NCBI GenBank assembly: GCA_903813345.2
Contig: CAIIXF020000006.1
Span: 7,056,989 to 7,120,988, forward strand
Direction of reading: 5' to 3'
Origin: Owenia fusiformis
Lineage: Eukaryota > Annelida > Polychaeta > Sabellida > Oweniidae
DNA: 64,000 nucleotides
The notes beneath the pieces are model-generated. The model was given only the letters and a program-made list of their open reading frames with translations, was not told the DNA's origin and did not search any database. Below are positions 7,601 through 34,600 of this stretch, one piece after another. The stretch's first letter is position 1, and each line of letters begins with the position of its first letter. A program made the translations under genes and the position numbers.

Positions 7601-10600
7601 GCTAAATGTATTGGTTGGAATTATATTTCAGGACCCTGATAGCAATCACAGAGAAGATCTTCATACCTAACTACTTTGACCTAAACTTGGTTGGGGCCCA
7701 GGCTGACCAGGAGGTCCTCAAAGATCTTATCAAGGTTAGTGCCCATAGTGACAATAAACTGTATAAGTAAGCACTGAGACTAACATAAAATACCCAAAAG
7801 GGGAACCAAAAGAAACATGGTAGAAAATATTCAAATGTTCTGAATGAAATTTAATGATATGATGTTCTTGCTTATATATTCCATAAGCAAGCTACCAGAG
7901 TTACATACACATCAGCCTATCAAAAGCCACAGAATTCCACATGGATATGACAATCTTAATTATTTTCTATTCCAGGAGAAGCTACCAGAGCTCCATGCAC
8001 ATCTAGATGAGATAGAGATTGAGATTTCCACCATCACCCTTAACTGGTTCTTGGCTGTCTTCTTTGATTCAGTGCCCTTTGAGGTAAGCATCCATTTAAT
8101 ATTTTATGAATTGCTTTACATATTCCACTGACCCTAAATACATTTAAGAAACATTCATATATTTTATGAACTTTTAAGGTAGGCACAGAAGGATGAATTT
8201 TTTACCAATTTGCTCATGTAACATTTAAGGTAAGCTTAGTAAGATGATTTTTGAATCTGATGTCAAAATCATAAGCATATGGAATTGTGTAGTCAGAAGT
8301 GATTACTGATTTACATCTTCTACACAATTTGTGAAAGCTTTAATATATTCACCACACTTTGCAAACTTCATTTTATTTTACAAATATATTGAGTAAGCCA
8401 CAATCAACCAAGACAAAAATTGGTGTTTGATATATATTTTTATTATCATAATATTGTTTTATATACTTGTATTATCTTCTTCATTTTTAAATGGTCATAG
8501 TCTTACTGTATAACAGACTCTTTAGTTCAGTAATAAACACAGGTACTAACCCCATAATACCATGAGCTTGCTCAGTGGTATCATGGCTACAGCATGGAGC
8601 TATTATTATTGTATATTATTATATCTTTTATTGACATATTATATCAGTTACATGATACATTGGTCATTAAATCACTACAAACTACTACTACAACTATTGT
8701 AACTATAAAAATAATTATTATTCAGTGTGATGCACACTACTAAACATATTAATCTAAATTCTGAAACCATGATATGTAAATTTTCCGATGTGTAATTGAA
8801 CAGTTAAGTGTTCAGTTGCCATTAACCTTTTAAAAATATGACTCATCACAATCAAAACTAGGAATAATACTATATGTATTAGCAAGCTCGGCAGGATGAT
8901 AAACTTGTGGATCCTTAAATGCTCATGGTATCATGGGGTCAGGTTAGTACCCGTGAAAAAAGAACATACCATCCAATATCTCCTCAGAATGCTCTCAACA
9001 GTCACAACAAGTGATTATGTTTTGTAATGTAAAAATAAATTCTATGAATATTAAAATAGAATAATAAACAGCCAAACAGACAATCTCATTGGTCAAAAGC
9101 ATCTATCAGCTAGTTGCCATATTTGGATTTTTATTAACATAAATGCCATTAACATTGTTTTGTTTTTTGAGTTATAATATTTGTTATTTTGCCTTTTTAC
9201 GACGTAACTTGGTAACCCTGACCAGCATGGCAGTTTATAAATGTTTCCTGAGATTTTAATAGTTTTGTATTGTATATAATGTTCAATCATATTGTATGTG
9301 GGGTCATATTATTATGATCTTAGAATTCATAACACAATGTTGGATTATATTGTATATTTGATGATATTCCGGAAGCTAAGAACACATTGTATAATCTTGG
9401 AATTTACTGTATAATGTTGGATAGTATCATACATGGGATTTTATTGTATAATGTTGGTTCATATTGTACATGGGAACATATTATGTAAGTTTGTAGCATA
9501 TTATACAATATTAGATCATATTCTATAATCATAATCATCTTCATAGTCTTCATCTTCTAATGGTTTGATTTTCATAACTGTTTCCTTTAATTCTATCCAA
9601 TCATCAGTGTCTTGATTAAACCACACGATTCCGACACCATAGCGTCCATTTAAGTTAACATAATGGCAATGTTTGTACCACCATCCAGCTGTGTAGAACT
9701 TAGCGCAATGTGTGCTGCTTGCGTCATTATCAACATCAGAGGTACTAAACATGGTGCCGTCTGAGTATGTGAATGATTCGGTTGCATTACCTAGGTAACC
9801 ATCGATCGTAAGGGTGTAATTTGATTTGCCAGAACCAATGTTGAATTCGTTGTAATCCGCGAAATAGTAGTCGCCGAAGACATCCCACATGTCGATTCGG
9901 AGGTTGTATTTTCGTTCTGTTGTTAATAGATGGAGATTTTCTAATCCTACCCAGAATTCAGTCGCAGCTGTTCCAAAACCATTTGTGTATTCTGCGAATG
10001 TTTTATTGAAGTCCACTGAACCATCATGCCTGTAAGATGTGATATATGCTTGAAATGTTATATGCCTCATACTACAGTTAAAGAAAGAAGTTAAAGAAAT
10101 GTCAAAAAGCTTTGAAAAATGTTGAGCAAGTAATATGATAATAGACAAATGACTATCAATTGTTATAGTTATATTATTTGTTGGTGTATTGGAACCTACA
10201 TTAAACAGTTAAAAGGCAAATTGCGTTTATTCCACTCACCTATGCTGTATTACTGTCCATGGGCCATCTATCTCAAACTCACAAAGGACTTGCACTGACT
10301 TTGTACTGTTCTTTGGTTTAATCAGATAGATACCACTCTTGCTGAACCCAGATGCAAACACATCAGAGCAATCTAGATTATAAAAAGGTACAACTTTAAA
10401 AAATGATCTCACAAGGATGAAATATCAATGACATAGGATCTTTATGAAATGATCATTGAAGAACATTGAAGGAAAAAATTAACCACCATCTGGGGTGTAC
10501 TATTCAAAGACATTACTTAATCCATTGTTTTAACCATGGAAATCCTGTTGTAATAATAAGAGAGCAATGAACATAAAAAGTCGTACTGTTTCCAAAAAAT

Positions 10601-13600
10601 CAACCCCTGTCTTATGATAAAATAATTCAAAATTCATTAAAGTTATTTATTCAAAAGCAAATAATTTACCTTGAGGCAGCTGGGTTACAAAATTCTTCAC
10701 TTCTTTTTCGATGACCTTGAGTTTTGGAATGACCTTGGCACACTCAGCTGTCTGCGTTTGAAGAGATTTTATCTCAGCCGCACGTCTGTTTTCATTTTCA
10801 TGGACCATCTGTAACCCTTTGTCAAACTTTGACACAGCATCTGGAGAAAGGATTAATAGATTAAAGTGTTTAATTTTGTACTTATTTTTATTAAGCTCAT
10901 AAATGAAAGATAAATATAAAAGTAAAAGAGGAACATCAGAAAAAAGGTTTAGTCACATGTACTTTACAATTGGAATGAGAAAGGGGCAACACTTGAAGAA
11001 CAAAAACACATGAATACCAGTACATGAACATAAAAACAGATTCTTTAAGACTTTCAGTGTACAATACACAATATTTTGTACATGGTATATGCACTTTCTA
11101 ACATGTACCTGGTATATACACGAGTGAAGAAACCCTGTAAAAAGTAGTAACTGATCCATAATAAAATATTAATACTTACTTCTAGCGTCTTTCCCAAGAG
11201 ATTCCAGTTTTGTGATGCTCTTTGTTATAGATGTAAATTTTAGGTCCTGTATTAGGTCTTTGTTGTTTTCCATGCAGTAGGTCAAACTAGCATTCAGATA
11301 ATTCACCTCTAAGTGAGCAATCTTATCCTTGTTACGATTATAATTTTCCGCTGCTTTTGTGAATTTATAATCGACTCCATTGAACAAACGCTGGAATCGC
11401 TGATAGTGATTTTGGACTCTTGTTCCGACTACTTCTACTGTTTTATTCAATTGGTTATATTTTCGTTGTATTAGTTCAAGTTTCCTGTTTGTTTCTTTAG
11501 AGTCTTTGTACACTATTGTTTCTAGATTTGTTATTTTGGCAATGTTGTCTTTGACATAAATGACCATATCTTCTATGTCTTTACGGTTTTCGTAAGTGAT
11601 GTTCACATGTTTTTTCGATTTCATCCTCCAATTGTCCAAAGTGAAGACTTGTTCAGTAAAGTTCATCATAATATTTTTGAATGTTTCCAGTTCTTCTTCT
11701 AAAGTTCTCTGGTTTTGTTCCTGAAGTGTCTCTTCCAGTGTTTCAATGTGATCAGTAAGACTTAAAATCTTTCGATTAAGTTCTACCAGTTTCCCATCTT
11801 TGTTGGTTATATCTTGTTCAATCTTACCAACCTTGTTGCTCAGAGTGTCCTTTTCTTTAAGGAGCTCTTTGATCTCATGCTGTATTGTGTTATCCCTTTC
11901 TTCAAGACCAGAGAGAATGTGTTCCCATTGTGACCCACTATCCCCATCTACCTCGCCAGAGCCTTCTACTTCTTCAGGGAATCTTGAAATTTTATTTTCA
12001 AGGTGAGCAACTCTATGTTGTGGGATGTTTTGTTGATTATGTGGTTGTTTTTTGGCCCTGTTTTGTATAATTTTCATATTTGTTTTTCCATCTACATCAG
12101 TTGGAATCAGATCCTCATCAATTACTGCTTCAAGCCCATTATCTTGTTGCAATGCTTTGTCATCATCTACATTTTTGTTATTAGTGTTATAATGATGGTT
12201 ATCAGTCTTCGTTTTATGATGTCGTACAGCATGTACTTTAGCAAGATCCTCCTGGAGTCGAACTAAGGCTGCTCTAGTGTGACCTCTCTCAGATTTTACT
12301 GTGTCAGTAAGATTGTTCAGTTCATTTTGAATCTGTTCAACAACATTATTTTCCTCGTCATGTATATTATTATGCTCCTTAAGCTTTGTCTGCATCCCTT
12401 CTAAAATGGCTTCAAGTACGCTTCCTTGCTGGTCTACAAGAACCTTAACTCTGTTTGTATCATCATTTAGTATTTCAATGGTGTCATTCTGAGTCCTCTG
12501 GGCTGTTTTAATGATTTGCATATCAGATCTCAATTTTCTGTTTGTCGCTTTAAAGTCATCAAAAGTCCATTTCTGGATGATCTTCATATTCTTTAAATCA
12601 GAATGAACAGTTGAAATATCCATATTGTGTATACTCAATGTTGTATTATGTGTATTGAGTGTGTTCTTCATAGATCGTACATCAGTTTTAATTAAATTAT
12701 TCACAGATTTGATATCCTTGAAGGCCCATTCATAATTAGCCACCATTTGTTCTAGCTGTTCAATTCTTGCAAGACTATTGTCTTGTTGTTGTTTTAGTGT
12801 TGTAAGCTCATCCTTTAGAATTGTCTCATCATTTTGTTGTGTAGTTATCTGGTTTTGCAGCATAGCAATGATGTACCTGAAATAAAAAAAATAATTTGAG
12901 TATCTTTTTAGCATTGAATCAGCCAGGCACTAGATCTATTTGAATTGGTTGCACCCATTTAAACAAGCTATGTGAACATATTTGGGTAACTAGAGTTATA
13001 AAAATGAGAATTCTGCACAAGATGGCTGGCATGTGTTGCAAAATGTCATGTTCTTTATAGTAATTCGATAAATTAGCTGACAGATGTTATAATTTTGAAC
13101 ATGCTTCTGTGTTCAAAATTTGGGCCCAATTTTTGGTTTTAGGGGCAAGTGATATAATAATTAATAAACATATGTGAGGATATCTTCTTGTGAAGATATC
13201 AACATGTAAGGATAGCAGTAATGGATCATGGAAAACTCTAGATGTAAGTTTCAACAAATTATTAACAGATGACATATCAGAAAAGGAAAATAAACCAACA
13301 AAAACACGTAAAGATACAGGCCTCTTCTGATACACAATATGTCTGCAGTTTTAAGAACAATCAGACCACCATGTGCTCCTATAACCTGATCCAGGCTTAC
13401 ATTTTGTCAGACTTTATCACAATAGACTTGTTGTCTTAATTAGCACATAATGAAATCTAAGAAACAATGCTGGTCTGACCTACAATTTGAAATTATTTCA
13501 ATATATCACAATTCTTGAAAAACTAACATTATTATCTTTTTATTTGCTACTTTTGATTACAGAAAATTGCATCTATATAAATAAACAATATGAAGACAAA

Positions 13601-16600
13601 CATTTTCGTTTGTTTAGAATATTAAGACATTTTAATTTCAAAAACAGACCCAGTAACTTAACATTATAATATTGGAAGGTACATGAATCATTCCCTTGAA
13701 ATTAAACCAGACCCAGTGAGAACAAGAAGTTTATATAATTGTTGATTATTAAAGTTGCTCAATGAATTATGTTCACTACCACATAATGTTGTTCTTTGCT
13801 CTTCTACTATTTTTGAAAGAAATTCATTGACGCCCAAATCAATATTTTATTTATTCATTAACAAAGGTAAAAATGTTGCAACTTTTGATGATATATTGGC
13901 GCTTTAACAGGTTTAGAGTCTGTCAAAATTTATCAGTGAATCTGAGTATCAACAAAAACATCTGTGTTGTTCCACAGCAGTTTATGTTACACTTATGTTT
14001 ATGAAAATGGTTCCAAGAAAGTTTGATCCGTTTGACCTTGGCATCTCAAAACAGTTATTCGAGTCAGAAAATTAAGTTAATGGATTATGCGTGTTGCTTC
14101 ATAGTAAGTTGTAGATGCTTTATGTTAACTGTATTTTGAAGTATGCAATGTTGAGTGAAATTCTGCAACAGATTTTGTGTTAAGTCTCTTCTTCAGTGAT
14201 CTCTTTGCCAACTGTGAACTTACTATTTGTTAATACATATAGTATAAATGCCATGAGATGGAAGAAAGAGAAAGAAAGGGGGGGGGGAGTGAGGGCCATA
14301 CAGGTAGAGTTCAGGGAGATGGAAAATTTCAAGGGGGGCGCTTCTCCTTCTGGAGATAGTGGGATATAGCTGATGTGGCTACCAATATAGCATGTGTAAA
14401 GGCCTGTAAAAATAAAAGAGGTTTTCACTTAGTGAAAACTAAGACATCGACTAAGGTACGGTAGCGAGAACAACTTTACAGTCACATATGGCCCAGTCTT
14501 GCCATATTTTATACACAACAGGGGAATGTTTTGAAACTGTCAGTGTGCTTGTAGTAGTAATAACAGGTGAGGACTTTGCAACTAGACAATTTTTTAATAT
14601 CTTATTTAACATAGAACTGTTATATTTGAGTGCCTATGAATGCTTGATCACACCCTTGAATCCATTCTGATAATTCAAGATATTTACTTGTTGCTTAAAG
14701 ACCATGAAAATACTGATCATCCATAATCATCTAACAAAAGTGCCAATCATTATTTAGGGCCATGGGTGATTGTGGTGAATTTATTTAGAACTATCACCTG
14801 ATTATTTTTTCATTAGAAAAAGCTTCTTGGGCATGATGATTGTGCCATTGTATATACACCTCAGTTATGTATTTTCTCTTTTAGGGCCTCAGTTTTGCCT
14901 CATGGGATCCTTCCCTATATGAATGTACTGTATCCCAGGCCCATTGAGAGACATAATCCCCCATATAAATCCACCTTATAGGTCATTCCCCGTATAGTAC
15001 AAGTCCCATATGATGCAACCATCATGTAAATGCATCCCCCTTTCAAGCATGTTTCCAATAAATATTTTAGTATGTTTCCCATGTTAATGCATCCCCTTTT
15101 CAAGCATGTCTCCCATATTAGTACATTTTCTTTATAAATGCATGTATGTCATGTGAATGTATCCCCAAATGAATGCATCTTCCATGTAAACACCTCTAAA
15201 ATAAACACCCCTTTAGTGAACACCACTCTATTGCAAATAACTCAGAAATGGATGTATTTATAGCCAGAGAAACAGTTCTTGTTATGTCCTCAGGTTTGAA
15301 GATCTCAGGACATGATGATGAATTACTGCCCCTTCACATGTTAACATGTTAAATATTTTTAAAAGTGGATTAAAGCATAATACGGAGAAATAAGAATGAA
15401 ATTGAATCTGTAATCTTGAAGTTGAAATTCTCAGTAATATAGAAATGTAAAATTCTCCGACATTTTATTCAAATTTTGAAATTTTGAAGAGAAAATGAGA
15501 GGAATAAGCATGAGCAGACGGATATTTTGCAACAAGAGTGAAATATCCTCAATGTGTAAGGTTGCACTTCCTGCATCTAGTTCAAGATGAACTCATTCTT
15601 CATTTGTGGATCTCCCCTTGCTAAAAGTGCCCTTGGTCATGGTAATATCTCAAGTTTTCTATGTAACTGATTGAACCAATGATGAAAAGGCGAATCTATA
15701 CATGATCATGTTATGAGACTGCCTCATTAATTTTTGGCTTATTCGATTCAGTTTTCTACAATTTTATTTGAAAACCTGGTTTGTTTATGACTTATAATTT
15801 ACAGGGAAGGAAAGAATTTTTGTGGTCATTTTTCTCTTTAGGAAATATAATATTTCTCTTCAAAACCAAGTTTGGAAATATGATGAACCTGCTCTGTTAG
15901 AAATGCTGCTGATCCAGGTGCGCTTATTATGTGAGAGTGAGATTTTGAGAATCATACTACGATGGTTTTACTCCAAATAGTGAGGCTTTTAGAATCATAC
16001 TCCTAGGGTTTTACTCCACAATAATGAGGTTTTGAGAATAAAACAACTAGGGTTTTACTCCAAATAGTGAGATTTTGAGAATCACACTAGGATGGTTTTA
16101 CTCCAAATAGTGAGGTTTTGAGAATCACAACTGGTTTTTTTCCACCAAATAGTGAGATTAGTGAATTTAGAGATTCATACTTCAAAGATTTTCTACATAC
16201 TAAACAAAAAATGGAGTTCTTTGAGGTATACTTTTTCAATCATCAATAATGCCACATGTTACATTTTTCCTTTATATTAATTGCAAAACAATGGTCCTAT
16301 ATATGGATTGATTATGGGACAATAGCCAAATTGTTTTTTATTTGACTGTGTGCTATGGTAATATTTATGTAAAGCATACTGTATTTTTCTCGAATATTGA
16401 GTTTGCTTTGAATACAAATAAACATGTTTTTAAAGTGATAATTTGCTGTAAATTTTTTATGACTTTTGTTCTGTTTAAGATGTTTTATTTAAACTAATTG
16501 TCTTCCTACCTGTTTTCTTTTTGATTGAGTTGATTTTCATCCACCTGTTTTTGAAGTTGTAAAAGTTTTGCATCGAAATTGGCTGTGACATCACTCACTA

Positions 16601-19600
16601 TTTGTGGTTGTTCATTCATATCCTTTGAAGGGGCCTCATTGATTGGTGTTTCAGTACTATGATCTCCACTTCCTTCTTGCCTTTGATATATTTGTTCATT
16701 GTTTCTTCTTGAATTTATATGGTTTTCAGGATTTTCCATTTTATTTCCATTTTTGCTGTGTTTTGTTATTTTTGTTTTAATTTCATGATCACTTTTTGAA
16801 ATTTTTTGTTGTTCATCTAAAACGACCTCAATAGATTCATCACTGTCATCATTGACATCATTACTGTCATCTTTGACTTCATCACTATCATCATTGACAT
16901 CAGCTCTGTCATCATTGATAGTTTCTCCAAAATTTACCATTTCAGTCTGAATTGGAACTTGAACAACTTGTCCTTCAATTAAACTTGAAAATTTTTCTCC
17001 AATTTCACCATCTTGTGTCATTCCAGCTTTCATTACTCCTGCATCAACAATGATAAAAAACCCAAAGGCAACACACAGAAAAAATTTGAGTTGTACACAT
17101 TTGGTCTCCATGTTTTTGTAGAATGATGACAAATTCTAGAACCAGGCTTATATAATCTACTTCAATGTACTATAATCCCTCTATAATCCCTAAATGGAAT
17201 ACTTATGTTGCGTGTGTGAAATAAAAATGTGGCTTCTTTTAGCTCTAGGTGTCAGTTAGCCCCCAGTTCATCTAAATTCTACTCCTGAACTATATACTTC
17301 AAGTAGAAGCTTGGAGATCTGAATGATTGCTTGTGTGTTTTACAATGTTCAGTAGAATATAGTATATAGTACTACCTGATTTACTGAAGTCCCAGAGATC
17401 TTCTTTTTGCTTTTTATGATCTGCTTACTTGCTTTATCAGCTGTTCTCCAGATTTAAGAAATCTTCAAAAATCTTAAGTACTTTTTTATTTTACACTATC
17501 GCCCTTGTGCTAAAACCGACTGATTGATTTAGATTTTCCCTTTGTTTTGGTCTTCCGTATTTTCTTTTCTTTTCAGTCCTGGATCTCATAAAGAAATGTC
17601 ACAGTTGCAGCCATATGAGATTTGTATTTTTAAAGAGGTTGTTCTGACCTCCAGATGTTTAGGCAAGTTTCAGATTTGGTGTGATTAGCGACTGTTATGT
17701 AAATCTTTTTTCGTAAATGACAAGTTTTGAAACATCTTTCTTTAATAACCGTTTGATCCAATGTGGTCAAATGTGTTGGAGGTTTCCAAAGGAGTTATCT
17801 TGTAGATATCAGGTACCATAATGGTCAGTCATCACTAGGATATATCAAACATTTATTGGTTGATACTGTATCACATGACATACAAGAGGAAACTGGGTAA
17901 TATCCAGCTCTGATAAGTAGTTTAGAAGGGTATATTTGCAATCTCTAAAGAATGATATGTTTAAGTGGCCAAACTTAATTAATTTTGGTAAAAAAATTGT
18001 TTCCTTATATTCCATTGTTTCATGAATATAATGTCCTCATAATAGATAGTAACATGACACTGTATGATGGAAGTGTCTCATTATTTGACACCTTGTGATA
18101 ATGACACTGTATGAGGGAAGTGTCTCCTTATTTGACACCTTGTGATCATGACACTTTATGATGGAGGTGTCTCCTTATTTGACACCATGGGATCATGACA
18201 CTGTTTGATGGAAGTGCCTCCTTATTTGACACCATGTGATCGAAGTGTCTTTATTTCATTATTTCTCTCAATTTTGAATGATTTAACTATATATCTTGCA
18301 TTTCTACCTGTTTCAGTATGCTGGTAATCTGTTTTGTCTGATCAATTTTATATTTTATGCTTTTTAAATATGAACATGTTGATGTATTAATGGGACATAT
18401 AAGATTCACTCTGAATTATTAAAAACTTTCAAACTTATATCAGTCTTGCTTTAAACTATTCACTTCAGATAAATTAAAATTCAATTTAATCAAATTCAAT
18501 ATGCCAAAACTTGACCAGTGTCGTATTTTGTTTCAAAGGACCACCAGGCAAGGTTCAACATAAAAGAGGATGTATCTTAAGTATCAATTATAAATTCCTT
18601 TGTTACTAGATCCTTCATTTAGAAGGTCTAGTCTAGTTTAATTGGCTTGTGATTTGTTATCACATGATTTCATTTCAATCTCTTAGGAGGCTTAGGAGTG
18701 ATTTCATGATGTATGATGGGTTGGTAGAGGGGGGAGAGGGGTGTTGCGAGGAAGTAACAACATATTTTGATGATTGAATGTCATATTTTGTTTTAAGCAG
18801 ATGTCATACCATATTTTCAGGCAGTGTCATGTCATATTATGAGATTGTGTCCTGTCATATTATGAGGCAGTTTCATGTTATATTATGAGGCAGTGTTATG
18901 TCATATTATGAGGCAGTTTCCAGTCATATTATGAAACTGTGTCATGTCATATTATGAGGCAGTTTCATGTCATAATATGAGATTGTGTCATGTCATATTA
19001 TGAGGCAGTTTCATGTCATATTATGAGATTGTGTTATGTCATATTATGAGGCAGTTTCATGTCATATTATGAGATTGTGTTATGTCATATTATGAGGCAG
19101 TTTCATGTCATATTATGAGATTGTGTTATGTCATATTATGAGGCAGTTTCATGTCATATTATGAGATTGTGTTATGTCATATTATGAGGCAGTTTCCAGT
19201 CATATTATGAAACTGTGTCATGTCATATTATGAGGCAGTTTCATGTCATAATATGAGATTGTGTCATGTCATATTATGAGGCAGTTTCATGTCATATTAT
19301 GAGATTGTGTTATGTCATATAATGAGGCAGTTTCATGTCATATTATGAGGCAGTGTCGTGTCATATTATGAGGCAGTGTCGTGCCATATAATGAAGCAGT
19401 GTCAAGTCTTATTATGAGCAGGTAATATGTCTTATAAAGGTGGTGTCATATCAAAATTGTTCAGCATTTTCATGGCTTAAAGAGATCTGTCCTCATGTAA
19501 GTCTAGAACATGAGATGTTCAGAGGATGTTACCTTTTGATGAAGCCACTGATCCATGCATGATATAATCCAGGCTATACTTGAGATTTGACTTATTTTTG

Positions 19601-22600
19601 GAATTTCAACAAACTTTCACTGGGACCTTCTTTTGCAGCCTGACTTATTTTTGAGAATGACCACAAAGATATGATGATAAATGACAAAAATCAAATCATG
19701 CATACCAAATTGTTGGTAATGGGTGTATGAAGGAGTTGGCATATAATAAGGAATCACCATGTGACTGTGAGCCAACTGAATGGTTTCATCCTTACTATTT
19801 TCTAGTCCAAATTCTGAATTTCATTCATTTGAAATATACACGACAAATCTGAACAACAAGGCATCAAAACGAGGTCTTAGAAGGATTAGTTTTGGAAAAG
19901 ATTGAAGAGCAATAGTATAGAAAAATTTCTTTGGATGTCCCAGATGATGGCCAGATCCAAAAATGCAGTTTTTGTTCATTAATATATTCTTGAAAGTAAG
20001 TAAGTGTTGTAGGAAATCAGCTCAATTATTATAAGAGGATGCAGTGTCTAAGGCAACAATCTGATAAAGACTCAAGTAGTTAACAAACTGCATGTTCCCA
20101 AAGATAAAAACTGTGACCCATTTTTACATTTTACATTTCCAAATTAGTTCAAGAGAGTCAAGAGGCAATACTCTAAAAATGAAGACTTAATTGACCCACA
20201 TCCTCAAAACTAGAGAGTTTTTGAGAAAACAACAAAGCAGAGGCAATCACTTTATATCACCAGTTAATGATACCTCTCTTAGTAGAAATACAGGGTGACA
20301 CAAACATCGCATGCAACTGTCTGATTTAGCATGAGAGACCTAGGAGGAAATCATGGTTTCTCTCAAGTTGTCGATGCTTCATATACAGGGTGAGCCAATA
20401 GAAATGGGACACTTACATATATTCTAGTTTAAAGGGTGTAAATGAGCTAAATGTCATTTTTATGGCCCACCCTGTATATACATACACGAATGTTTCACTT
20501 ATTGAACACATTGAGATGGAAGAAAATGCTTACATTTTTAAAAAAGGGTTTCATTTTTTGCATGACCCTCAGGCCCATAGCCAGCTTTTGCCAAGTGGGG
20601 TTACTTTTTAATAGGGGGGTTGACTTCCTGGGGGGTTCACTCTAAAAAATTTGGGTAGGCATGTGCAGCAGGGGCAATTTTGGCTTAGGGCATAAACCAT
20701 GGAAGCTTGCCAATCTGAGAGGAAAAAAACATGGAAAATTTGTCGAAGAGAGAGCCTTTTTAAGTAAAAAAATCAGCTTTTCTACAAATAATGGTAATAA
20801 ATTGGTAAAATCAGTTGGCGAGGTCTGGGATAAATCACCTAAAAAGTGGATTTTATAATTATACACCAATATTTCAGGAAATTTACTCCCTTTTACAAGT
20901 CCGAGAGGAAGTATACTTGGAAACTTTCAATCTTGAGAGGAAATTGACATGGAAAAAATGCTCAAAAGAGGGGTCTTTGGTGCGGCATATAGGTATTGAG
21001 AGGTATATTGGAGTGAACCCCCGGGGTTGACTTTTGACAATTTTGGTCCAAAAATGGCCAAAATCAATTTAAAAAAATGCTCAGAATGGTGACAAATAGT
21101 GCATGATTTTGAAAGAATTTTTGACTCATTGACCCCCCTGGCTTCGGCCAATTAACATATGTTAATTAGGTTACAACCATAAAATTAGCTGACTATATTG
21201 AATTAAACTCTTGTCATCTAGGATTAACTTTCAATACCTCTATGGTTTCTTTAATCTCACTTTCAAAGGTATTATCTTAATTAATTAAGGAATTACTTCA
21301 TATTGTCTCACAGATTTATAGTTAGACTCTATGTCTATGAACAGACCATGTTTAGAATGCAATTTGTATTTATAAACATCCATATAACTTTGAATATAAG
21401 CATGGATAGAAATTCATTGTATTAAGTACAAAATAATACATTTGTATTTTCAAAGTTATATTTTTCCATTCTCTTAAATATAGATACATATTTGTGTCAA
21501 AAAAATGTATATAATGTTTTGTTTGTAAGATTTTAACAAACTTCTGTAGTCTAGATGCCATAAAATGATAATTTTTTTTAACATTAGTATGGACATGGCT
21601 TTATTCAATTAAAGCCCATGGTATGGGAAATACATATTAAAATACTGGGTGATCAAGCATATTGGAACCCTTGATTAAATTATATATCTTTTAGGTTTAA
21701 AGTTTTTTTTAATATCGTAACATATCTTCTACAGGATATTTTGCACAATCTGCCCCAATTAACATTTTCAACTTAGCATAGATGTATATAGCGGACATAG
21801 CTACACTGATTTAAAAATTTGGACACATCTCATGAAAGTCATTTTCCCTGTATGAGCACATGTACTCTACTGTCAAGGCATTATCAACACAATTTTTTAA
21901 TATCAACCAGATACATTTTTTCTGGTCACACTTACTTTAATGTCTTTAAATAGCCAGAGATTATTGTTTGATAATAATTTTCTAAACTTTTAGCTATAGT
22001 CAATGCTAGTCGGGAGCTGGCCCAGGCTCATGGCCCCCGAAATGGGTTTATTGTTTTTTTAGAAATTGTTGAGCATGTAATACACACATGGTGAAAATAC
22101 AACAATTATATAACTAAGTATGATCATGAACAGTACTTGTACATTGTATTTTGTCATGTGGCACCATAAACTCCTGAGAATACCAAAGGCCTTTGATTCA
22201 GCTTGCTCTGGTATTTTGGGTTCAGGAATTCTATCAAACATGACTTTGTTCCATAGTTTTAACTGTCTGGATTTGCTCTTGCCATAGAAGGACTGAGTCA
22301 TTGTTCTCAGTTCATTGTGACAGGTGATCATATCCTTGAAGTGATCTCTCATAGCAACAATGGATACACTCATCGGTACATTGATGAGTGCGTTTGCTGT
22401 GAGTTTTCTCATTATCTTGTTGTATTGTACTGTATACCACACAGCTAGTTCACGATTCCTTCCGCGGCCATAGAAGTCACTGTGATTTGTTAAGAAAGTT
22501 GCCATGATGCGGTAATGTTCAGCAACTTTGACTGGGCCCTCTTCCAGGGCCGTCAGATGGGGGGGTGCGATGGGTGCGACCGCACCCCCCTTTGTCACCC

Positions 22601-25600
22601 CACAAAAAAAAATTTGAAAAAAATGTTTTTTTTGAAAAATATTTTTTTGTAATTTTTTTTTCATTGACTCATACACTTTGAAAGTACCCAGAAAGCACCA
22701 AATAGCATCTTAAATTGAAAAATTTTCTAGGGGTATTGGCCACCCCTCACACCCCCCACAAAACAATGGAAAGTTCTTTTATTTTAGTGTTTTGTCTCAG
22801 ACACTTTTAAAGTGCCCAGACATCATCAAATAGCTCCTTGATATAGTTAGTGTTTCTGGGGGACTTGCTCCCCCTCTTGCATCTTGCACTTGCCCCCCCC
22901 CACTCTGGCGCCCCCCCCCCCTCTGGCGCCCCCCCCCCCCCTTGACCCCCCCCCAAAAAAAAAATTGTGATTTTCTCAAATTCTTTAATTGACTCATACA
23001 CTTTGAAAGTGCCCAGAAAGCACCAAAAAGCGTCGTAAAATTGTAAAATTTTCTAGGGGGAGTGGGCCACCCCTCACACCCCAAACAAAACAATTGAAAG
23101 TTCTAAATTTATTTTAGTGTTTTGTCTCAGACACTTTTAAATTGCCCAGACATCATCAAATAGCTCGATCCTTGATAAAGTTAATGATTCTGGAAGACTA
23201 ACACTTACTCGTCCTCTGGCATCCCCACTCCACCTCCCCCTCTGGCAGCCCCCCCCCCCCCTTAACACCCCAAAAAGTGCCCAGAAAGCACCAAATAGCA
23301 TCTTAAAATTGTAAAATTTTCTTGGGAAATAGGCACTTTTAGGCACAGACACTTTTAAAGTGCCCAAACTTCATCGATTAGCACCTTGATATTGTAAATT
23401 TTGATATTGGGGACAAACACTTGCTCCCCCTCTGGCACCCCAGCCCCACCTCCCCCTCTGGCACCCCTCCCCCCTTTGACACCCCCAAAATTTGAAAAAA
23501 ATTGTGATTGTTTTTCAATGTTTTTATTGACTAATACACTTTAAAAGTGCCCAAAAGCACCAAATACCATCTTTAAATTGTAAAATTTTCTAGGAGAGTT
23601 AGCCACCCCTCACATCCCCCACAAAACAAAAGAAAATATTCTGAATTTCATGTATTGTCTCAGACATTTTTTAAGTGCCCAGACATCATCAAATAACACC
23701 TTGATATGGTCAATGTTTCTGGGGGACAACCCCTTGCGCCCCTACTGGCACCCCACCCCACTTCACCCTCTCATCCTCTTTGACACCCCTAAAAGAATTT
23801 GAAAAAAAAATTCACATTTTTCTTATTGACTCATATCGCACAGGCGTACCAGATGGTTGCAAATTCGCTCCAAATACAACCAAATTTCAAAATTTTCCTG
23901 GGGGGAGAACCCCCAGACCCCCTAGGCCCTGAATGCTCAGTTTTTTATTCACTCAACTCTTATTCCCGTGGTGGTGGCGTACTACTTAGAAACTTACACA
24001 TTGAAAGTGCCCAGAAAGCACCAAATAGCATCTCAAAACTGTAAAATTTTCTAGGGGGAGTGGACCACTCCTCATACCCCCCACGAAACAATTGGAACGT
24101 TTGGAAGTTGCATTTGTTAATTCCAAACCAATATAGGGAGTAACTGACCCCCCCCCCCTCTGTCTTACGCGATTTGATTACGCGGCAAAAAAATGACAAT
24201 TTTATATTCTCTTTAGTAAGCTAAAAACCGCACCCCCCTTGGAAAAAAGTGTCTTACGGGCCTGTCTTCACATATTGTACTGGACTTGTTTAAGACAGTT
24301 TTTAATACATTGTCACGTAGACTGATCCATAGATGGGGCCACTGTTGATAAAGCATGTCTGTGTATCTGTGGTGGAATGCATAACAGAGCACAGCACATG
24401 TAGATTCCTTGATAGACGTCAATGCTTTGATATTTATCTCCCTCCCTACAGCAGACATATCATGTAGCACATTATGTTCTTGTATGAAGTAATGAGGCAG
24501 GACCCCATTCTTGAGATACCCTAACAGCTTGTCTATAAGTTTCATAAAACACTTCGCTTCATTCTCTCTCATCCATTCAGATTGTTCTACTTCTTCACAA
24601 AGCCAAAACATGGTACATTTCATGTGAAATGACTCCAATGCATCCTTGTATTCTAAGTCCTTCATAACTGAATAACATTTTTCTGAATACTTGTACAAAT
24701 ATTTCAGGAAAAGAAAGCATCTTATTTGTGTTCTATTTAAGCTCCATACAAGCTGTTTCTCGGCTACTGAAAATGACCAGCTCCACTCAACACATCCTGA
24801 TGCTCTATGAAACATAGACAAATACATTTTGAATTTGGTTTCGGGTACAGGAAGAGATCCTCGAGGAACCACATGACATCCAGATGAAACAATCTTTTGT
24901 AATAGTTTCTTACATGGCCATCCGCTCGATGTTTTACGGAAAAAAAATTCTAATCCATCCACTGGCCATAGATAGACAGAAATTGCTGGCACATGATCAA
25001 TGTAAACGGATGCTTTTCCTAGAGTTGTGTAAAGCCCATGGGCATTCTTAGATTTATTAGTTTCCAAATTATTCTCAATAAATACAGCTTCATTTACAGC
25101 AGGTCCGTGTATACGTCTCTGATCTGTCCAACAACGGGTTGTAATGTCATTCTCTGAAAACTTTACATCACTGTTATTTTTGCAACAACGGCAAAGATCG
25201 CCATAACGATTATGTCCATGCTCAAAGTGGCAAAAACATTTTTCAGGAATCACGGAAAGTTTCTCCAAAAATTTTGCCAAATAATAATGGGAATTCTTGG
25301 GGACTGCCATAAGATTTTCTGTCGATCTTGTAAAGTCAAATGGTTCCAACTTTTGGAATTCAATAAGCTTTTGCCCATCAAATTTCATTTTACCATTTGT
25401 GATCTTAAAAAATATTTTCTGGGATACAGCCATATTGATGTATACGATCATTAGGTTTTCTTGAGATTTTTGTCTGAAAAATAGTGGCACCAAGCCTATA
25501 TCACGAAAAGACTCCTTAGGTTTACCGATCATAATATCATCCAGAACAACATATGTCATGTCCTCATACATAATGTCCATGTCAAATGTTCTTCTGCGAT

Positions 25601-28600
25601 TAAGTCCATCATAATTGATTTCTATATCAAGGGGCTCATCTTGCATAAATGCTATTCCCTCAGCAAGGCTTCCTGAAAAGATAACCTTTCCTTGGTCTTG
25701 CTTAACAAAATTGTGCAGTTTATCACCAAATACATCCTCAGTTTTTGTAGAATTGTTTATATCTTGGGTAAAGATAATGGAGTTCATTACAATGTTTAAT
25801 TTATCCATTTTCTATTCAGTACAGTAGATGTGTATGAAGTACCTAAAGTATCATGGTATGCATCTATCGCTCATATGTTCATGTTTGATTTTATAAGTTG
25901 AAATGCCATTCTCAACACTCCAATGACGAGGGAGTCGTGGGACAACTGCAGTTGATACTCAAGATAACTGTGGCCTCCCAGTCCAAAGTACTTCGACAGC
26001 ATACATTGAACTGTCAACATTCGTTTTATCAATACAATATAATAAAACATACCATCATGATACCATTAATAAATTATTAAATTACAGTCCTAATTATAAT
26101 TGAATTTAACTGATAAGTAATATACAATGTACATGTATATATTTACTCACTTACTTGCGAATATACTAATCTTATAGTCATCTTCTTTCAGTCAAATAAA
26201 CAGAATACCGGTAACTGAAAATTAAGATCTCTCATACCTATTCCACCCATTCTCAAATAAGTTTTAAAACATTATCTATAAGGGGTGCTACAGGATTTCT
26301 GATCACTTCCTTTTTCCAGGATGGTTTGTGAAATGCATCATGCTTCTCCAATGCAAATTTGGGCTGTTGATATTGCAAAAGAAAAGTTTTGGAGCAAATT
26401 ACAGTAGCTTTACTTACATTGAACAACCTCTATTTTCAGGTCTAATTATTAAGTGCTGTGAAGACAATGTTTTGGAACTTTCAGAGAGTGATGGTTATCA
26501 ATTTTGATGTACAGTATACATATTTCCATGCCCTAGGTGGAAGAAGACATTGTTGGATTGTGGCATCCGGATGATTTATAGGAACAATATATCAATTTTA
26601 CAGAGTTCACAATTTATACAAGCTTGCTGTTGTCGAAATCTCAAAACTAAATATCTACAGCAAAGTGGTTTAATTCAATGAAAACTAAAAATAGAAATTG
26701 ACATTTGCCATCCCTCATTTTGAATGAGAATGTAACATCTGTTACATGACCACTGACATAGGGTAAATTTTGAACTCCTATGATTTGTAGGTAATTGTGC
26801 CAGCACTTTTGAATGTTGCCACTTGTGTTTTTCAAACCTGTGGACATCCTGTATTTGCAGACTCTGTTGAGGATCTGGGACTGTTTTCTACTGGAAGGTC
26901 CCAAAGTTTTGTTCAGATTCTCCCTGGCAATGTTACGTATGCATCAACAGAGTATACTGTATAAGAAGGACACCATTAGCATCATGCGCCATCTAAAGTC
27001 ATGTGCAAAACTAACTTTCGATGTGGAAGGTTTGATGAAGGTAAATAGTGCACTTTTTGATAAAACTCAGTGAGCATTGAATTTCAGCAAAATAAATTAT
27101 ATTTTTTAAATGTTTTATTTTCAAGATGTCAACATTTTGGTAAATCATGGGAAAATTGGCTACTGACTAGATTGGAGATCCAATTTTAATGAATTATGAT
27201 ATTGGAATTTTAAACATGTTTTAGACTAGATAAGAGGTTGTGTCAAATCATCAATCATCATCTCATACCATGTTATATCATGCTTGGTAAGAGGGAGTTA
27301 AATGGCCATTTTTTATGTAACACCTTCAAATTCTTCTCATCATTAGTTTTTTGAAGTATTCATTGATATTTTATGAGCTAGGGTATTTAATCAAAAAATG
27401 TTATGATATTTGTTTGATATCAATATTTTGATTTGAAACTATAGGATGTCTATGTTTTATTTAGATTGCATTTGAGGACCTGAAACCATTTCCCCACAGG
27501 AATGAGATCTCCTCCAAACAGACATGTTACATGAATGCCCTGAAGGAGAAGGTTCGCAAGAGGGAGCAGGAGAGGAGAGTCTACGCAGAAAGAGAACAAA
27601 TGGTAATTACATGTACTATTGTACATGTATTTTCATATGTATTATTGAGATGTCTCACATATGTTTCTTTACACTTGCCATGATATTTGAAAATTAAAAG
27701 CCATTAATAAGTAATCATGCTGATAATGTCTCCTTGGATCAATTTGCATCTGTTCTTGAAAAACAATATTATTTTATGGAATTAAAGAATAGTTATTCTG
27801 TATTAAAGGCATTCTGACAAAAACAAGTAGATAAATCCAAGCCTTGCTATTAAATGTTGCCCTTTGTTCTTCCTTATTCCAGTTCAGGGACTTAGAACTT
27901 ATGCCCAGCAATGCTCTGGTGATTGAGTGTGCGACATTGCTGGCTAATGGAAACCTGTGGGTGTGCCATGCTGAACAGAACTCTGCAAAGCTCTGGGGCG
28001 TGTCATGTGATGAGGCTGTCATGATTGACCTAGGAATAGAGGTGAATACATTATAATTGAATGTGAAATATGATATATTTGTGTGGCCTTTCTGAAAATC
28101 TTTTTTGAGGGAATGGTTGGAACACCTTTGAATTTATTTAAATAAGTTTGCAATTTTTCAGTTCATTATTTGTTTTAAAATATCAACCCTGTTTTGTTTA
28201 TAGTTTGATTCACGTGTGATGTGCATCGTTGCACTAAATGACGAAGTTGTCATTATCGGCACTCTTTCTTGGAACCTCTATGCATTCAGCATATTAACAA
28301 GGTAGGACTTAAAAGGATCATGTCTACTTAAAAACTTATGTGGAAATGACACATCTAGTCAGAGTGGTCATTGGTTTGACACCTGCAAAAATTTGGTCAT
28401 TTCCCTAAAATGATTACTCTATGAGGAATCAGATGAAAATTGACAAAATACAATGTATATGATACATAATACACTGTATAATGTATATGAAACAACACTC
28501 TAAGTGCTATGTTAATACAGTCATTGTTTTATTTTATGTTTTAAGACAATACAAGAACTAAGAAAATATAATATTTTCAGGGAAGAAATGTGGAGGATAC

Positions 28601-31600
28601 GCTTGCATGATGCGGTTCTTGGTTTGTGCTGCCATCTGGAGGACATCAACTCAAACAAGGTGTTTGCAGCATTAGCAGACGGAACTGTCTGCGTGATTGA
28701 GGTATGTGAAGTAATTGATTAGAGAGGGCTTAATAGAATGATATTCTATACAAGGGTATAACAAAGCAATGGGGCAGCCTGCAAATGGGCAAAATTTGAC
28801 AGAAAAATATTCACTAACATCATTTGTCAAATAAAAATGGAAATTGTCCAATAGACTCAAAGGGAATAATGTTTAATTACTGGCCTGAATTTGACTCATC
28901 TATTTTAACCCCTGGACTGGCATACTGTTTATAGAAATCATCATATCATATGGATTTTTGTATAATATGTTTTGGTCAAACTAGATCATTAGCTTCTATT
29001 GAGGGAGTCTTTTTTAAATTGGATTTAGCACTTCCATTTAAGAGCTCTCATATATATGTGTAATATTCCTTATCAATATTGAGCCCATTTTAAATGAAAT
29101 GTTTTAATAAAATGAAATGATTTTCAGGATGTGAGTGAGAAGGAACCTGACCATAATATTTTCTACATTCCTATTGGTCGATCACCTGTGACATCACTAG
29201 TCATTATAGAACAGCAACTCTGGTGTGCTTGCGGGAATTCAGTTCATATTCTACATGCAAGGTGACGCCTCTAATTAATAGAAGAAAAAATGTAACAGAT
29301 TTGTCTGAACATTTGTTGAAGATTTGTTTCAAATAACAAATTAGTCACCTTAAATCTGAGATGATCTCCATCCTAAATGTACAAGATTAAGTAGAATTGA
29401 AGGAAATCTAGTTTGAGAATCATATATATATTTTAGACCATGCATATTGATGGTAGCTGAGGATTTAAAACCACCCACCTCATATAAATAAAGTTTGTGA
29501 GACACCACAGGGTAAACATCTGTTGTAACTCCACCAACAATGATTGCTTTATTTTCTTGATTTATTTTAGGACCCTTGACAACATGGACAGTTTCGTGAT
29601 CTCTCCAAATCTGTTTGACCATGTCCTAACACTAGCCCATGCACCATATGGAGTTTGGATATCTGTTAAGGGGTCTTCAGTTATTGAATTGTGGGACCAG
29701 AAGCTATTGACGTGCAAACTGTTGTATGATGTCAGAGAGAACAAATATCCAAATCTTAGAAAGGTTTGTAAAAATGAAAAAAGATAACTCCCTCTCTTTC
29801 TAAATTTGAAAGGGAGGGTAAATATAAAATTTCAAATTCCGATTCACCAAATCATATTGTCATAAATCACATACAGTAAAACCTGTCTTAGTGAACATCT
29901 CCCTCTAGTGAACACCTGTGTATAGTGAACAGCACTTGACTCTGGTATAAAATCCCCTCTCTGTAGTGAACACCTACCGACAGTGAACACTTTTCTTCAG
30001 GTGTTCACTATATACAGTTTTTTTTTGTATTTAGGAATTTATTGTATGTTTAGGAGGATGAGGGTTACCTGAACAAGGCCCGGATCACTGCTCTGTTACC
30101 CTACCAGAATTCTATATGGATAGGGACGGGTGAGGGCAATGTCCTGATATATGACATCCTGGATAAACCATCTGCAGCGGCCAGCAGGTAGTTCCAATTA
30201 TATAACCTAGCTAATATATTCTGTTGAAAATATAAGACTTGTCCATTTGCCACAGTTAGTTTGATCATGGCACACATATTTACAATTTTCCTGAGGTTTG
30301 GTTCTGCAGTACATGTTTTACTTCATTTATACAAAGTGTGTGGGTGTTGGGACATATGGGAAGGTTCATGACTTGCTTATTGGAAAAATAATGGTAGTTA
30401 TGTTTTGAAATGCAAAATATTGTGTAGTGCTGTGTCATTATCAAGAAATAAATAAACAGGCATTCTGTCAATACTCATTATTATGTCACCACCAAAAGTG
30501 GTGACATATTGTTATGGTCTCCGTTTTTTTGCGACGGCGGTTGGTGGTTGGTGGTTGGCGTCCGGCGTCCGGCGTCTGTAACAATTTCTTACAACTTCCT
30601 ATAACTTAACAAATACTGTTTAGACTGACTTCAATTTTTTTCTAAATCATCTACATGTTCTCAGAAGTTCAAATCTGACTTTAGATTAGACATTTGACCT
30701 TCAATGACCTTCTCAAGGTCAAAAAGGTCTTTTTTCAACTTGCTTCACATTGACTAAAATTTTTTTCAAAATCATCTACATGTTCTCAGAAATTCAAATC
30801 TGACTTTAGATTTGACTTTAGATTTGACATTTGACCTTCAAATCTGACTTTAGATTTGACATTTGACCTTCAATGACCTTCTCAAGGTCAAAAAAGGTCA
30901 AAAAGGGTCTGTTTTCAACTTGCTTCAAATTGACTAATTTTTTTTTCAAAATCATCTATCGTGTTCTCAGAAATTCAAATCTGACTTTAGATTTGACTTT
31001 AGATTTGACATTTGACCTTCAATGACCTTCTCAAAGTCAAAAAAGGTCAAAAAGGTCTTTTTTCAACCTGCTTCAAATTGACTAAATTTTTTTTTCAAAA
31101 TCATCTACATGTTCTCAGAAATTCAAATCTGACTTTAGATTTGACATTTGACCTTCAATGACCTTCTCAATGTCAGAAAAAGGTCAAAAAGGTATTTTTT
31201 CATCTTGCTTCAAATTGACTAAATTTTTTTTCAAAATCATCTACATGTTCTCAGAAATTCAAATATGACTTTAGATTTGACTTTAGATTTGACATTTGAC
31301 CTTCAATGACCTTCTCAAGGTCAAAAAGGTCAAAAAGGTATTTTTTCAACTTGCTTCAAATTCACTAATTTTTTTTTTCTAAATCATCTACATGTTCTCA
31401 GAAATTCAAATCTGACTTTAGATTTGACATTTGACCTTTAATGACCTTCTCAAGGTCAAAAAAGGTCAAAAAGGTCTGTTTTCAACTTGCTTCAAATTGA
31501 CCAAATTTTTTTTTCAAAATCATCTACATCTTTTCAGAAGTTCAAATTTGACTTTACAAGTTCTCAGAAGTTCAAATCTGACTTTAGATTTGACATTTGA

Positions 31601-34600
31601 CCTTCAATGACCTTCTCAAGGTCAAAAAGGTCTTTTTTCAACTTGCTTCAAATTGACTAAAAAAAATTTTCAAAATCATCTACGTGTTCTCAGAAGTTCA
31701 AATCTGACTTTAGATTTGACTTAAGATTTGACATTTGACCTTCAATGACCTAACTAGGTGGTGACATTTTGTCATGTTAATGCCTTGTTTTATTGTATTG
31801 TATTGGAATATCAAAGAAGGAATCGGATTGTTCAGTCATATTTTAGAGACATTTTAGATATGAATGAGAACATTTTCAGTTTGAGTTTCAATCAATATTT
31901 TTATACCAGTCAGAGTTTAATGAGATATGTAAGTGAAATAAAGATCCTTGATGTTTCATTTCCAGGTTATCCACACGGCTGTCATCTTCCAATGGCAGTC
32001 TGTCCAGCTCTCCAACTCCACACGGGGATCAGCATCTCAAGAAAATTGCATCCATGGACAAAATCGAGGAAAAAATCCACGAGCTCTATTTCCAAAGACT
32101 TCAAGAGCAGAAACCAGTTTTCTCGATAGAAGGAATTGAAAATGTTGAAGTTAACGAAGAGAAAAAGAGAAGTCTTCCGATAGATTCAAAGAAAATAGAG
32201 TCCCCTGGAGATGAGAAATCCAGTACTTCTGTTGAAACATTAAAAAATATCAGCGGGGAAAATACAGAGGGTGATAATACACCAAGGGTGATGTCACCTA
32301 CTGCCATTATGACATCATCAATGATGTCATCAATTTCCAATGCTGAGAGTTTTGAGAGCGATTGCACGCCAAGGGTAATGTCACCTGCAACTGTGCTTCC
32401 AAACAAAAGTGCCAAAAATGGGCAAGAGGCCTTAGAAAATAATAAAAATTTCAGCATTCATGACAGTGCAAAGAATCAACATGATTCCCATGGTAATCAA
32501 GAGCAAAAACTCACGAATGAATCAGTATCTAAACAAAATAATATCTCATCAGATTCAGTGAGCATAACAGATGACATAATTAAGATGGATTCTCCCCCAC
32601 CAACATCTACAACAGAGGAGGTCACTGATCCCCAAAATGCAACAGAAGAAGCTAAAACTCAGGAAACTGATGCATTCCATAGTCTGAAGAAGAGTCTGAG
32701 GAAAAAAGATTCGGTGAACAATAATACAGAGATCTGGGTTGCGAAATCATTAGAATATATTGAGAATAATCTAGCGAGTGATATCCCTGTCAACAGTTGT
32801 GAACCACAATTTGAATCTCAACAACTACTTGCAGCTAAAATTGAGCTTCAGCAATCTCAGGAAATGGAGGAAAATAAAACAAAATTAGAAATATCTATGT
32901 CACAAACAGATAATGGTGTGTCACAAATGGAAAATGCTATGTCACAAGAAAATAATGAGTCACAAATTGACACTGCTAAGACTCATAACAAATCAGAATC
33001 TGGCATTGATTCTGAATATTCTGATCGCAAAACTTCAACTTCCACAACTGGGACAGAGGTATTTGATGATTTAAAACCTGATAACGATACTACCACTAAA
33101 ACAAGTGATGATGCTAAAATAGAACCTAATGATTATGATACCAAAGTAAAACTTAAAGCAAAAGCAATGAGCAAGCAGAATACAGTACCCTCGGTTAAGA
33201 TAATACCTGAACCTTTGCCTACTGATGGGTCTATTACTCAAGATAGTGGCTTTGAACAGACTCTGAGCCCAATATCTGAGACTCATGAAGCAGTCTTTGA
33301 AGACATTGAGCCAAGTCCTGTTGATCATCAACAGAACTTTGTGCATACTAGTCAGCCATCATTAGATGTCACTCAGGAGTATCGGCAAAAGTTAAGTCCG
33401 ATTTCTGAGGCTGTTGAAATGTTTCCATTTGGGGAAAAGGAAAAATGTGAATCGGGAAGTGCCCAATGTTCCAATAATAAAAGTCCCAGAAGTTTAAGTC
33501 CTCATAGAGATTCTAGTCCTTGTTTATCATCCACATCACAACCTGTTGATATTACAATAACTGACACGTCTTCCCATTCCATAACAATGGCCAATCACAT
33601 GCACAGCAAACCACCCACACTTGATGATAAACTGACCAATGAGAGCATTCAAAAATGTTCCAGTGCAGAAAATATTCAGAGCAATGTCTCATGGTCCAGT
33701 TACGATGAATTAACCTTATCAACATCCCCCTATGATTCATCGACACATGAGCTAGATCGAGATCTTAACATGGCACTTAATCTTGAGGGGAGGGGAAGAA
33801 TTCAGAGTGCAGCTTCTGTCGGGAGTCTTATGAGTCCATCAATGGGTGGAACGGACGCCCTCTATGTTTATGAGATGCAACTCCAGGCAAAAGTCAAAAT
33901 CACTGATAAGCCAATCAGATGCCTTATAGAAACAAAGTGAGTTGAATATATGCATTTTATTTGAAAATGCACTTTTAGAAGGGTAAATAATTCACAACTT
34001 TTTTCTCAAAAACTAAGCAATCTTCTTTCTTTAGTGGAGGGGACTCTTCACAGTTATGGGAATAAAGTTTTCCATATCCTTGAATATGATTTATCATTCT
34101 TTTTGTTTCAATGAAAGAAAGAGTTGACCATACTAAGATGTAATGGTTGCCATGGTGTTTAATTGAGATTATTTATGTTCTTACTATATTTCTTCTTAAT
34201 CCAAGGAGGATTGGCTCCCAGGAACGCAATTAGATATTTTCCAACAATGAAAATGTCAGAATGTTGTTATTTTCTGACATTATAGCTGACTATAAATTCA
34301 TAATCAACAATCCAAAAGATTTGAATCAATATCTCAATCACTTCTTGTGTGTTCTGAAATTTTTTCGAAAAAGCCCAAATCTCGCTATTCCAGTTCTGAA
34401 GTGAACAAAAATGGTGGCTGTTTGAGTTCGAATTTTATAATCGCGACAACACCAAATGGCAGAAAATTGAGTTGGAACCCTGGGAGCCAATCCTCCTTGT
34501 TTTTATAATCTGTATATGTGTCCCATCTAGTTGCTATGGTAATGAATTAATGTTTGTTCTAGATGTAAGGAGGAACCAATCATAGTGAGTTGTGCTGGTT

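Follow-up and report, generated by a model that had tools for sequence, protein, structure and literature searches.

Results

Interrupted Coding Sequence

The window analyzed here, a stretch of 64,000 nucleotides (nt) from the annelid Owenia fusiformis (assembly GCA_903813345.2, contig CAIIXF020000006.1, forward-strand positions 7,056,989 to 7,120,988), contains a Mab-21/cGAS-like coding sequence on the minus strand that falls into two parts. The 5′ part (codons 1–513) occupies 24270–25808, and the 3′ part, which starts with the third base of codon 515 and includes the stop, occupies 22059–22539. Between them lie two copies of the pentanucleotide TCTTC, read from the sequence at 22540–22544 and 24265–24269, and enclosed by these is a 1720-bp segment (22545–24264; given without strand, as are the two copies) that is a DNA transposon with terminal inverted repeats (TIRs), probably nonautonomous. 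The TIRs are 13 bp long, CAGGGCCGTCAGA at 22545–22557 on the plus strand and CAGGCCCGTAAGA at 24252–24264 on the minus strand; written in this way, the second being already reverse-complemented, they are identical at 11 of 13 positions, with two mismatches. The interior consists mostly of degenerate repeats of the GTGCCCAGAAAGCACCAAATAGC type. The bases immediately beyond the two TCTTC copies, read directly, are unlike each other, and the target site duplication (TSD) is therefore exactly 5 bp.

On the minus strand, the interval from 25808 to 24270 measures 1539 nt, or 513 codons. Removal of the element together with one copy of the TSD joins 1539 + 5 + 481 = 2025 nt, which form 675 codons, the last of them being the only stop. 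A previous sequence-only reading had described a 1720-bp element between TCTTC copies in a Mab-21/cGAS-like coding sequence with 513 codons before the break and 675 after joining; its boundaries are exact to the base, its arithmetic was reproduced without change, and its family assignment agrees with two Pfam domains above cut-off and with matches to cGAS-like structures (see below).

The ends and the duplication were compared with chance by scanning for CA...TG elements of about 80–5000 bp that have 13-bp ends with at most two mismatches and an exact duplication of 4–10 bp. The window yields nine matches, this element included (five with 4-bp and four with 5-bp duplications), versus one in the reversed window; with nine such matches present, the ends and the duplication are weak evidence when taken alone. 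What sets the case apart from chance is above all how the insertion coincides with the reading frame. Removal of the element and one TSD copy restores the phase, for which the chance expectation is 1 in 3, and the tail is free of stops in this frame, whereas the alternative frames contain 13 and 9. Random 480-nt placements in the window, with real open reading frames (ORFs) left in, are stop-free in 260 of 20,000 cases (1.3%). The two parts might instead be separate genes or exons that fit together by chance, as the tail has no database match and its codon usage is unremarkable. An exact TSD precisely where the frames meet in phase, and a stop-free stretch that random placement gives in only 1.3% of cases, multiplied by one in three for the phase, make this highly improbable.

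Classification of the Element

In hAT5 transposons the TIRs are short and start with CAG, and the inverted ends here are likewise short and of the CAG...CTG type, with the 11/13 match given above. The 5-bp TSD, TCTTC on both sides and not extendable, is a second likeness to hAT5 (PMC12730594). Membership would call for a hAT transposase gene, or for ends shared with an element that has one. In this copy no transposase was recognized in the four ORFs that were searched, and no related copy was found in the collections named below; it is therefore called hAT5-like and not placed as a member of hAT5. Transib, the other superfamily with 5-bp TSDs, is characterized by CACWRTG ends and a GC-rich target, whereas the ends here read CAGGSCCGT and the target is TCTTC, and this assignment was rejected. 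Judged from its ends, the element is probably a nonautonomous cut-and-paste transposon with hAT5-like termini.

The four ORFs lying wholly inside the element gave no transposase domain match (80–100 residues as searched; shorter ORFs were outside the search), and self-match and CA...TG end scans gave no second copy within the window. No related copy was found in phages, viral_contigs, or genome_contigs, none of which is a eukaryote collection. Exact TIR and internal-repeat patterns occurred at one, four, and two loci, and when the element was compared by blastn with these seven loci, the best match, among the three best listed per locus, was 16–27 bp long and corresponded to the motif itself; these were discarded as chance. 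A literature search with the nine-letter element end returned nothing related, as judged by title.

Domain Content and Truncation

The product of the joined frame is a Mab-21/cGAS-like protein by its domains, both of which exceed the curated Pfam cut-off of 24.1 bits: Mab-21 at residues 226–353 (27.4 bits, E = 4.2e-06) and Mab-21_C at residues 376–453 (56.2 bits, E = 4.1e-15). Both lie in the 5′ part. In the PDB, the 513-residue part matches cGAS-like receptor 1 (8gjy, E = 1.3e-10), MB21D2 (7lt1, 5.7e-07), and cGAS (3.6e-06 at best), and D271 is aligned to an Asp of 8gjy. These domains and best structural matches are shared with the cGAS-like receptors (cGLRs) and the Mab-21 family (PMC9980059); the protein differs in having a long tail at the C terminus that is hydrophobic at its end and an active-site motif that departs from the strict form. 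That form is published as h[QT]GS-X8-20-[DE]h[DE]h-X50-90-h[DE]h (PMC9980059), and it has no match in the Mab-21-like protein: carboxylates are present, and a residue and the spacing deviate. Candidate catalytic motifs are FSGS at 44–47 and either DIEI at 61–64 or DMDI at 76–79. The protein is therefore described as Mab-21/cGAS-like; it may be a catalytic cGLR or an immune receptor. A cysteine/histidine-rich stretch, CFCHFEHGHNRYGDLCRCC, at residues 191–209 (25182–25238, minus strand) might bind metal. Searches with the 513-residue part gave 13 stretches fitting the pattern in genome_contigs, none of which was confirmed as a relative, no pattern match in viral_contigs, and no tblastn match in phages.

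The break falls after residue 514, and Mab-21_C ends at 453–454, about 60 residues upstream. As the allele stands, the reading frame (24213–25808, minus strand) specifies 531 residues followed by a stop, of which 514 are native and the last 17, DRPVRHFFPRGVRFLAY, are encoded by the element. In this frame both domains are still detected by Pfam (Mab-21, 2.3e-06; Mab-21_C, 6.8e-15). The tail that is cut off comprises 160 of 674 residues; the 159-residue piece that was searched has no Pfam or PDB match. Near its end, residues 650–668 of the joined frame (22080–22136, minus strand) form a hydrophobic segment with a mean Kyte-Doolittle value of 2.45, a candidate tail anchor; among windows that begin upstream of residue 630, the highest value is 1.25.

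The sequence-only reading had suggested that the insertion could be a natural knock-out allele of a probable immune gene. The coding sequence is indeed interrupted and the 160-residue tail cut off, but the whole detectable Mab-21 region is still encoded within 531 residues. A full loss-of-function allele, in which loss of the tail or mRNA decay abolishes the protein, would fit the removal of nearly a quarter of the residues, the hydrophobic segment among them, and the polyadenylation-like AATAAA hexamers that the element carries on the gene's strand (23949, 23528, 23113, and 22783), which could bring about an early transcript end; another such hexamer, at 25058, lies in the coding part itself. 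However, both Mab-21 domains are kept, and junction-dependent mRNA decay is not necessarily triggered when the stop lies in the final coding exon or in the sole one. We consider complete loss of function somewhat unlikely. Because both Mab-21 domains end upstream of the break, truncation after the conserved core is a better description than knock-out, and the domain boundaries suggest that a core-retaining product without the tail is no less likely than a null.

Possible Splicing of the Element

The right TIR contains the sequence GTAAGA on the gene's strand, a weak donor-like match whose G lies at 24257. The element could accordingly be considered as a new intron that runs from a donor CCC/GTAAGA, 7 nt inside the right TIR, to an acceptor GAAGAG/GG at the junction of TSD and exon and leaves a near-normal full-length protein. 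This donor adjoins the boundary, and by our own arithmetic the pairing adds 6 nt, or two codons, in frame. There are also precedents: exonic maize Ds1 can provide donors and acceptors near its own ends (PMC5432752), and Introners with TIRs or TSDs are described that use one splice site of their own and one from the target, or that add codons (PMC9860276). The likeness to both lies in a TIR element within coding sequence that has a GTAAG-type donor match near its end. The differences are that a sufficiently strong acceptor is lacking at the element end and that the length is 1720 bp, versus family median lengths of 30–654 nt in the Introner survey (PMC9860276).

Splice sites were scored on a crude scale with textbook human matrices, not fitted to this species. 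On this scale the donor scores 0.43 and ranks 22nd among the region's 218 GT sites, whereas the in-frame acceptor scores −8.42 and ranks 161st of 231. A better AG two bases upstream (−4.01, rank 77) is out of frame, and among the several AGs in the vicinity of the end an in-frame one is to be expected. The strongest acceptor of the region is inside the element, at 23790 (7.92). For comparison, the putative sites of the surrounding TBC-domain gene (see below) score 1.2, 6.4, 4.4, 6.4, and 4.7 as donors and 2.6, 1.1, 7.4, and 0.8 as acceptors; a GT at 7767 (2.51) was dropped as a donor of that gene because it lies past the putative exon end at 7734, and, close to the first three TBC exons, six more AG sites were not taken as acceptors. 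The TBC-gene donor at 6629 is nearly as weak (1.21) as the one in the TIR, and we therefore raised our estimate for the intron explanation by the smallest of steps; it remains very unlikely. Splicing-out by the tested pairing at the element ends appears unlikely mainly because there is no good acceptor at the element end, the donor being just below the weakest putative one of the TBC gene.

Age of the Insertion

The sequence-only reading also held the insertion to be recent relative to the gene. Because both frames have stayed open, the divergence since insertion can be bounded at the 95% level with assumed indel:substitution ratios of 0.15–0.05: it is at most about 0.7–1.5% if the whole 2022-nt frame has been unconstrained and at most about 3–6.5% if only the cut-off 480 nt have been. 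The open frames thus support a bound, but one that holds only without constraint since the insertion, and on that condition the insertion is likely recent. It may alternatively be old and fixed, with the frames kept open by continuing selection to both sides of the insertion or in a different isoform, and under persisting selection open frames give no date. No route for translation of the tail was seen, however, and splicing looks weak, so that we regard an old insertion as unlikely.

The sequence-only reading further proposed that the insertion could be polymorphic in the population, which is plausible. Widespread hemizygous regions and presence-absence variation are described for the Mediterranean mussel (PMC7653742) and would be a natural setting for such a polymorphism in a bivalve; the variation described there concerns whole genes, whereas an exonic transposon is concerned here.

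Surrounding Genes

The Mab-21-like gene appears to lie antisense within a large intron of a plus-strand TBC-domain gene. Positions 2–68, 69–112, and 180–216 of the RabGAP-TBC profile are matched by plus-strand ORFs at 6332–6727, 7172–7372, and 26813–27070, respectively, and intervening pieces near 7632–7734 and 7976–8083 were located by motif. PDB entry 4p17 matches with residues 210–244 at 7976–8089 (E = 0.0064) and with residues 245–296 at 26861–27070 (E = 3.8e-07). These matches adjoin each other directly, and splice-like sites are present at 8084 (donor, GAG/GTAAGC) and 26860 (acceptor, TTTGCAG/ACT), from which we infer a phase-0 intron of 18,777 bp (8084–26860, plus strand).

Within this putative intron the Mab-21-like gene would be accompanied by an exon that encodes a fibrinogen domain and by two neighboring long ORFs, also antisense, so that two genes of immune-type families would be nested in one intron. 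An ORF at 9519–10208 (minus strand) matches Fibrinogen_C with E = 9.3e-44. The long ORF at 11172–12929 (minus strand) is coiled-coil-like, with a sub-threshold match to ATG16, and that at 16509–17135 (minus strand) has a signal-peptide-like start and no Pfam match. If joined, the ORFs across 9519–17135 perhaps form one secreted fibrinogen-related gene.

Downstream of the last TBC piece, a plus-strand ORF at 28516–28719 has a weak match, below cut-off, to the LRRK2 beta propeller (E = 0.027). The plus-strand ORFs at 27506, 27835, and 29488 and a 662-codon ORF at 31952–33940 (plus strand) match no Pfam family. Together, the ORFs of 27506–33940 are possibly a continuation of the TBC gene or a neighbor. 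A tentative label for the ORFs near 27835–29787, ARHGEF10-like, was not borne out and was dropped.

Elsewhere in the window, an ORF at 40175–41005 (minus strand), perhaps XRCC2-like, has a Rad51 match just below the Pfam cut-off (20.7 versus 22 bits). Tandem arrays at 18761–19474, 30626–31751, and 57725–58615 show self-match offsets near 95, 150, and 145 bp, with identities of about 72–95%.

Discussion

Overall, we consider it probable that a single insertion of a hAT5-like transposon truncates the Mab-21/cGAS-like coding sequence downstream of its conserved core. One event, by way of a staggered 5-bp cut, would have placed the element in what appears to be a single long coding exon. Translation of the present allele would enter the element, continue for 17 codons, and stop, giving a 531-residue protein that would keep the nucleotidyltransferase and helical domains and lose the 160-residue tail with its possible membrane anchor. 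The likely consequence would be an altered location, stability, or regulation of the protein and not a certain null.

Several points weigh against this interpretation. The kind of element is judged from its ends only, as the searches gave no relative. Codon usage gives no independent sign that the tail is coding, as its score is equalled or exceeded by 526 of 4633 random stretches. AlphaFold2 models made without an alignment have a mean predicted local distance difference test score of 32.4 for the 531-residue frame and 40.3 for the tail and were not used; the claim that the core stands without the tail is therefore carried by the domain boundaries.

Transposons inserted into exons commonly give rise to allelic variation. 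In some bivalve genomes the number of cGLR proteins exceeds 200 (PMC9980059), and with insertions of this kind being common, the loss or change of one cGLR would be unsurprising in itself. A more speculative idea, which we hold to be a long shot, is that the insertion segregates in the population and in this way switches one cGAS-like protein from a membrane-tethered form to a soluble one, at whose end stand 17 residues encoded by the transposon. The insertion is otherwise a tidy, ordinary exonic transposon event. If true, such a switch would be a natural allele that reveals the role of the C-terminal anchor in proteins of this kind. The clean site offers an easy natural test, in which the 531- and 674-residue forms could show whether the tail sets the location of the protein.

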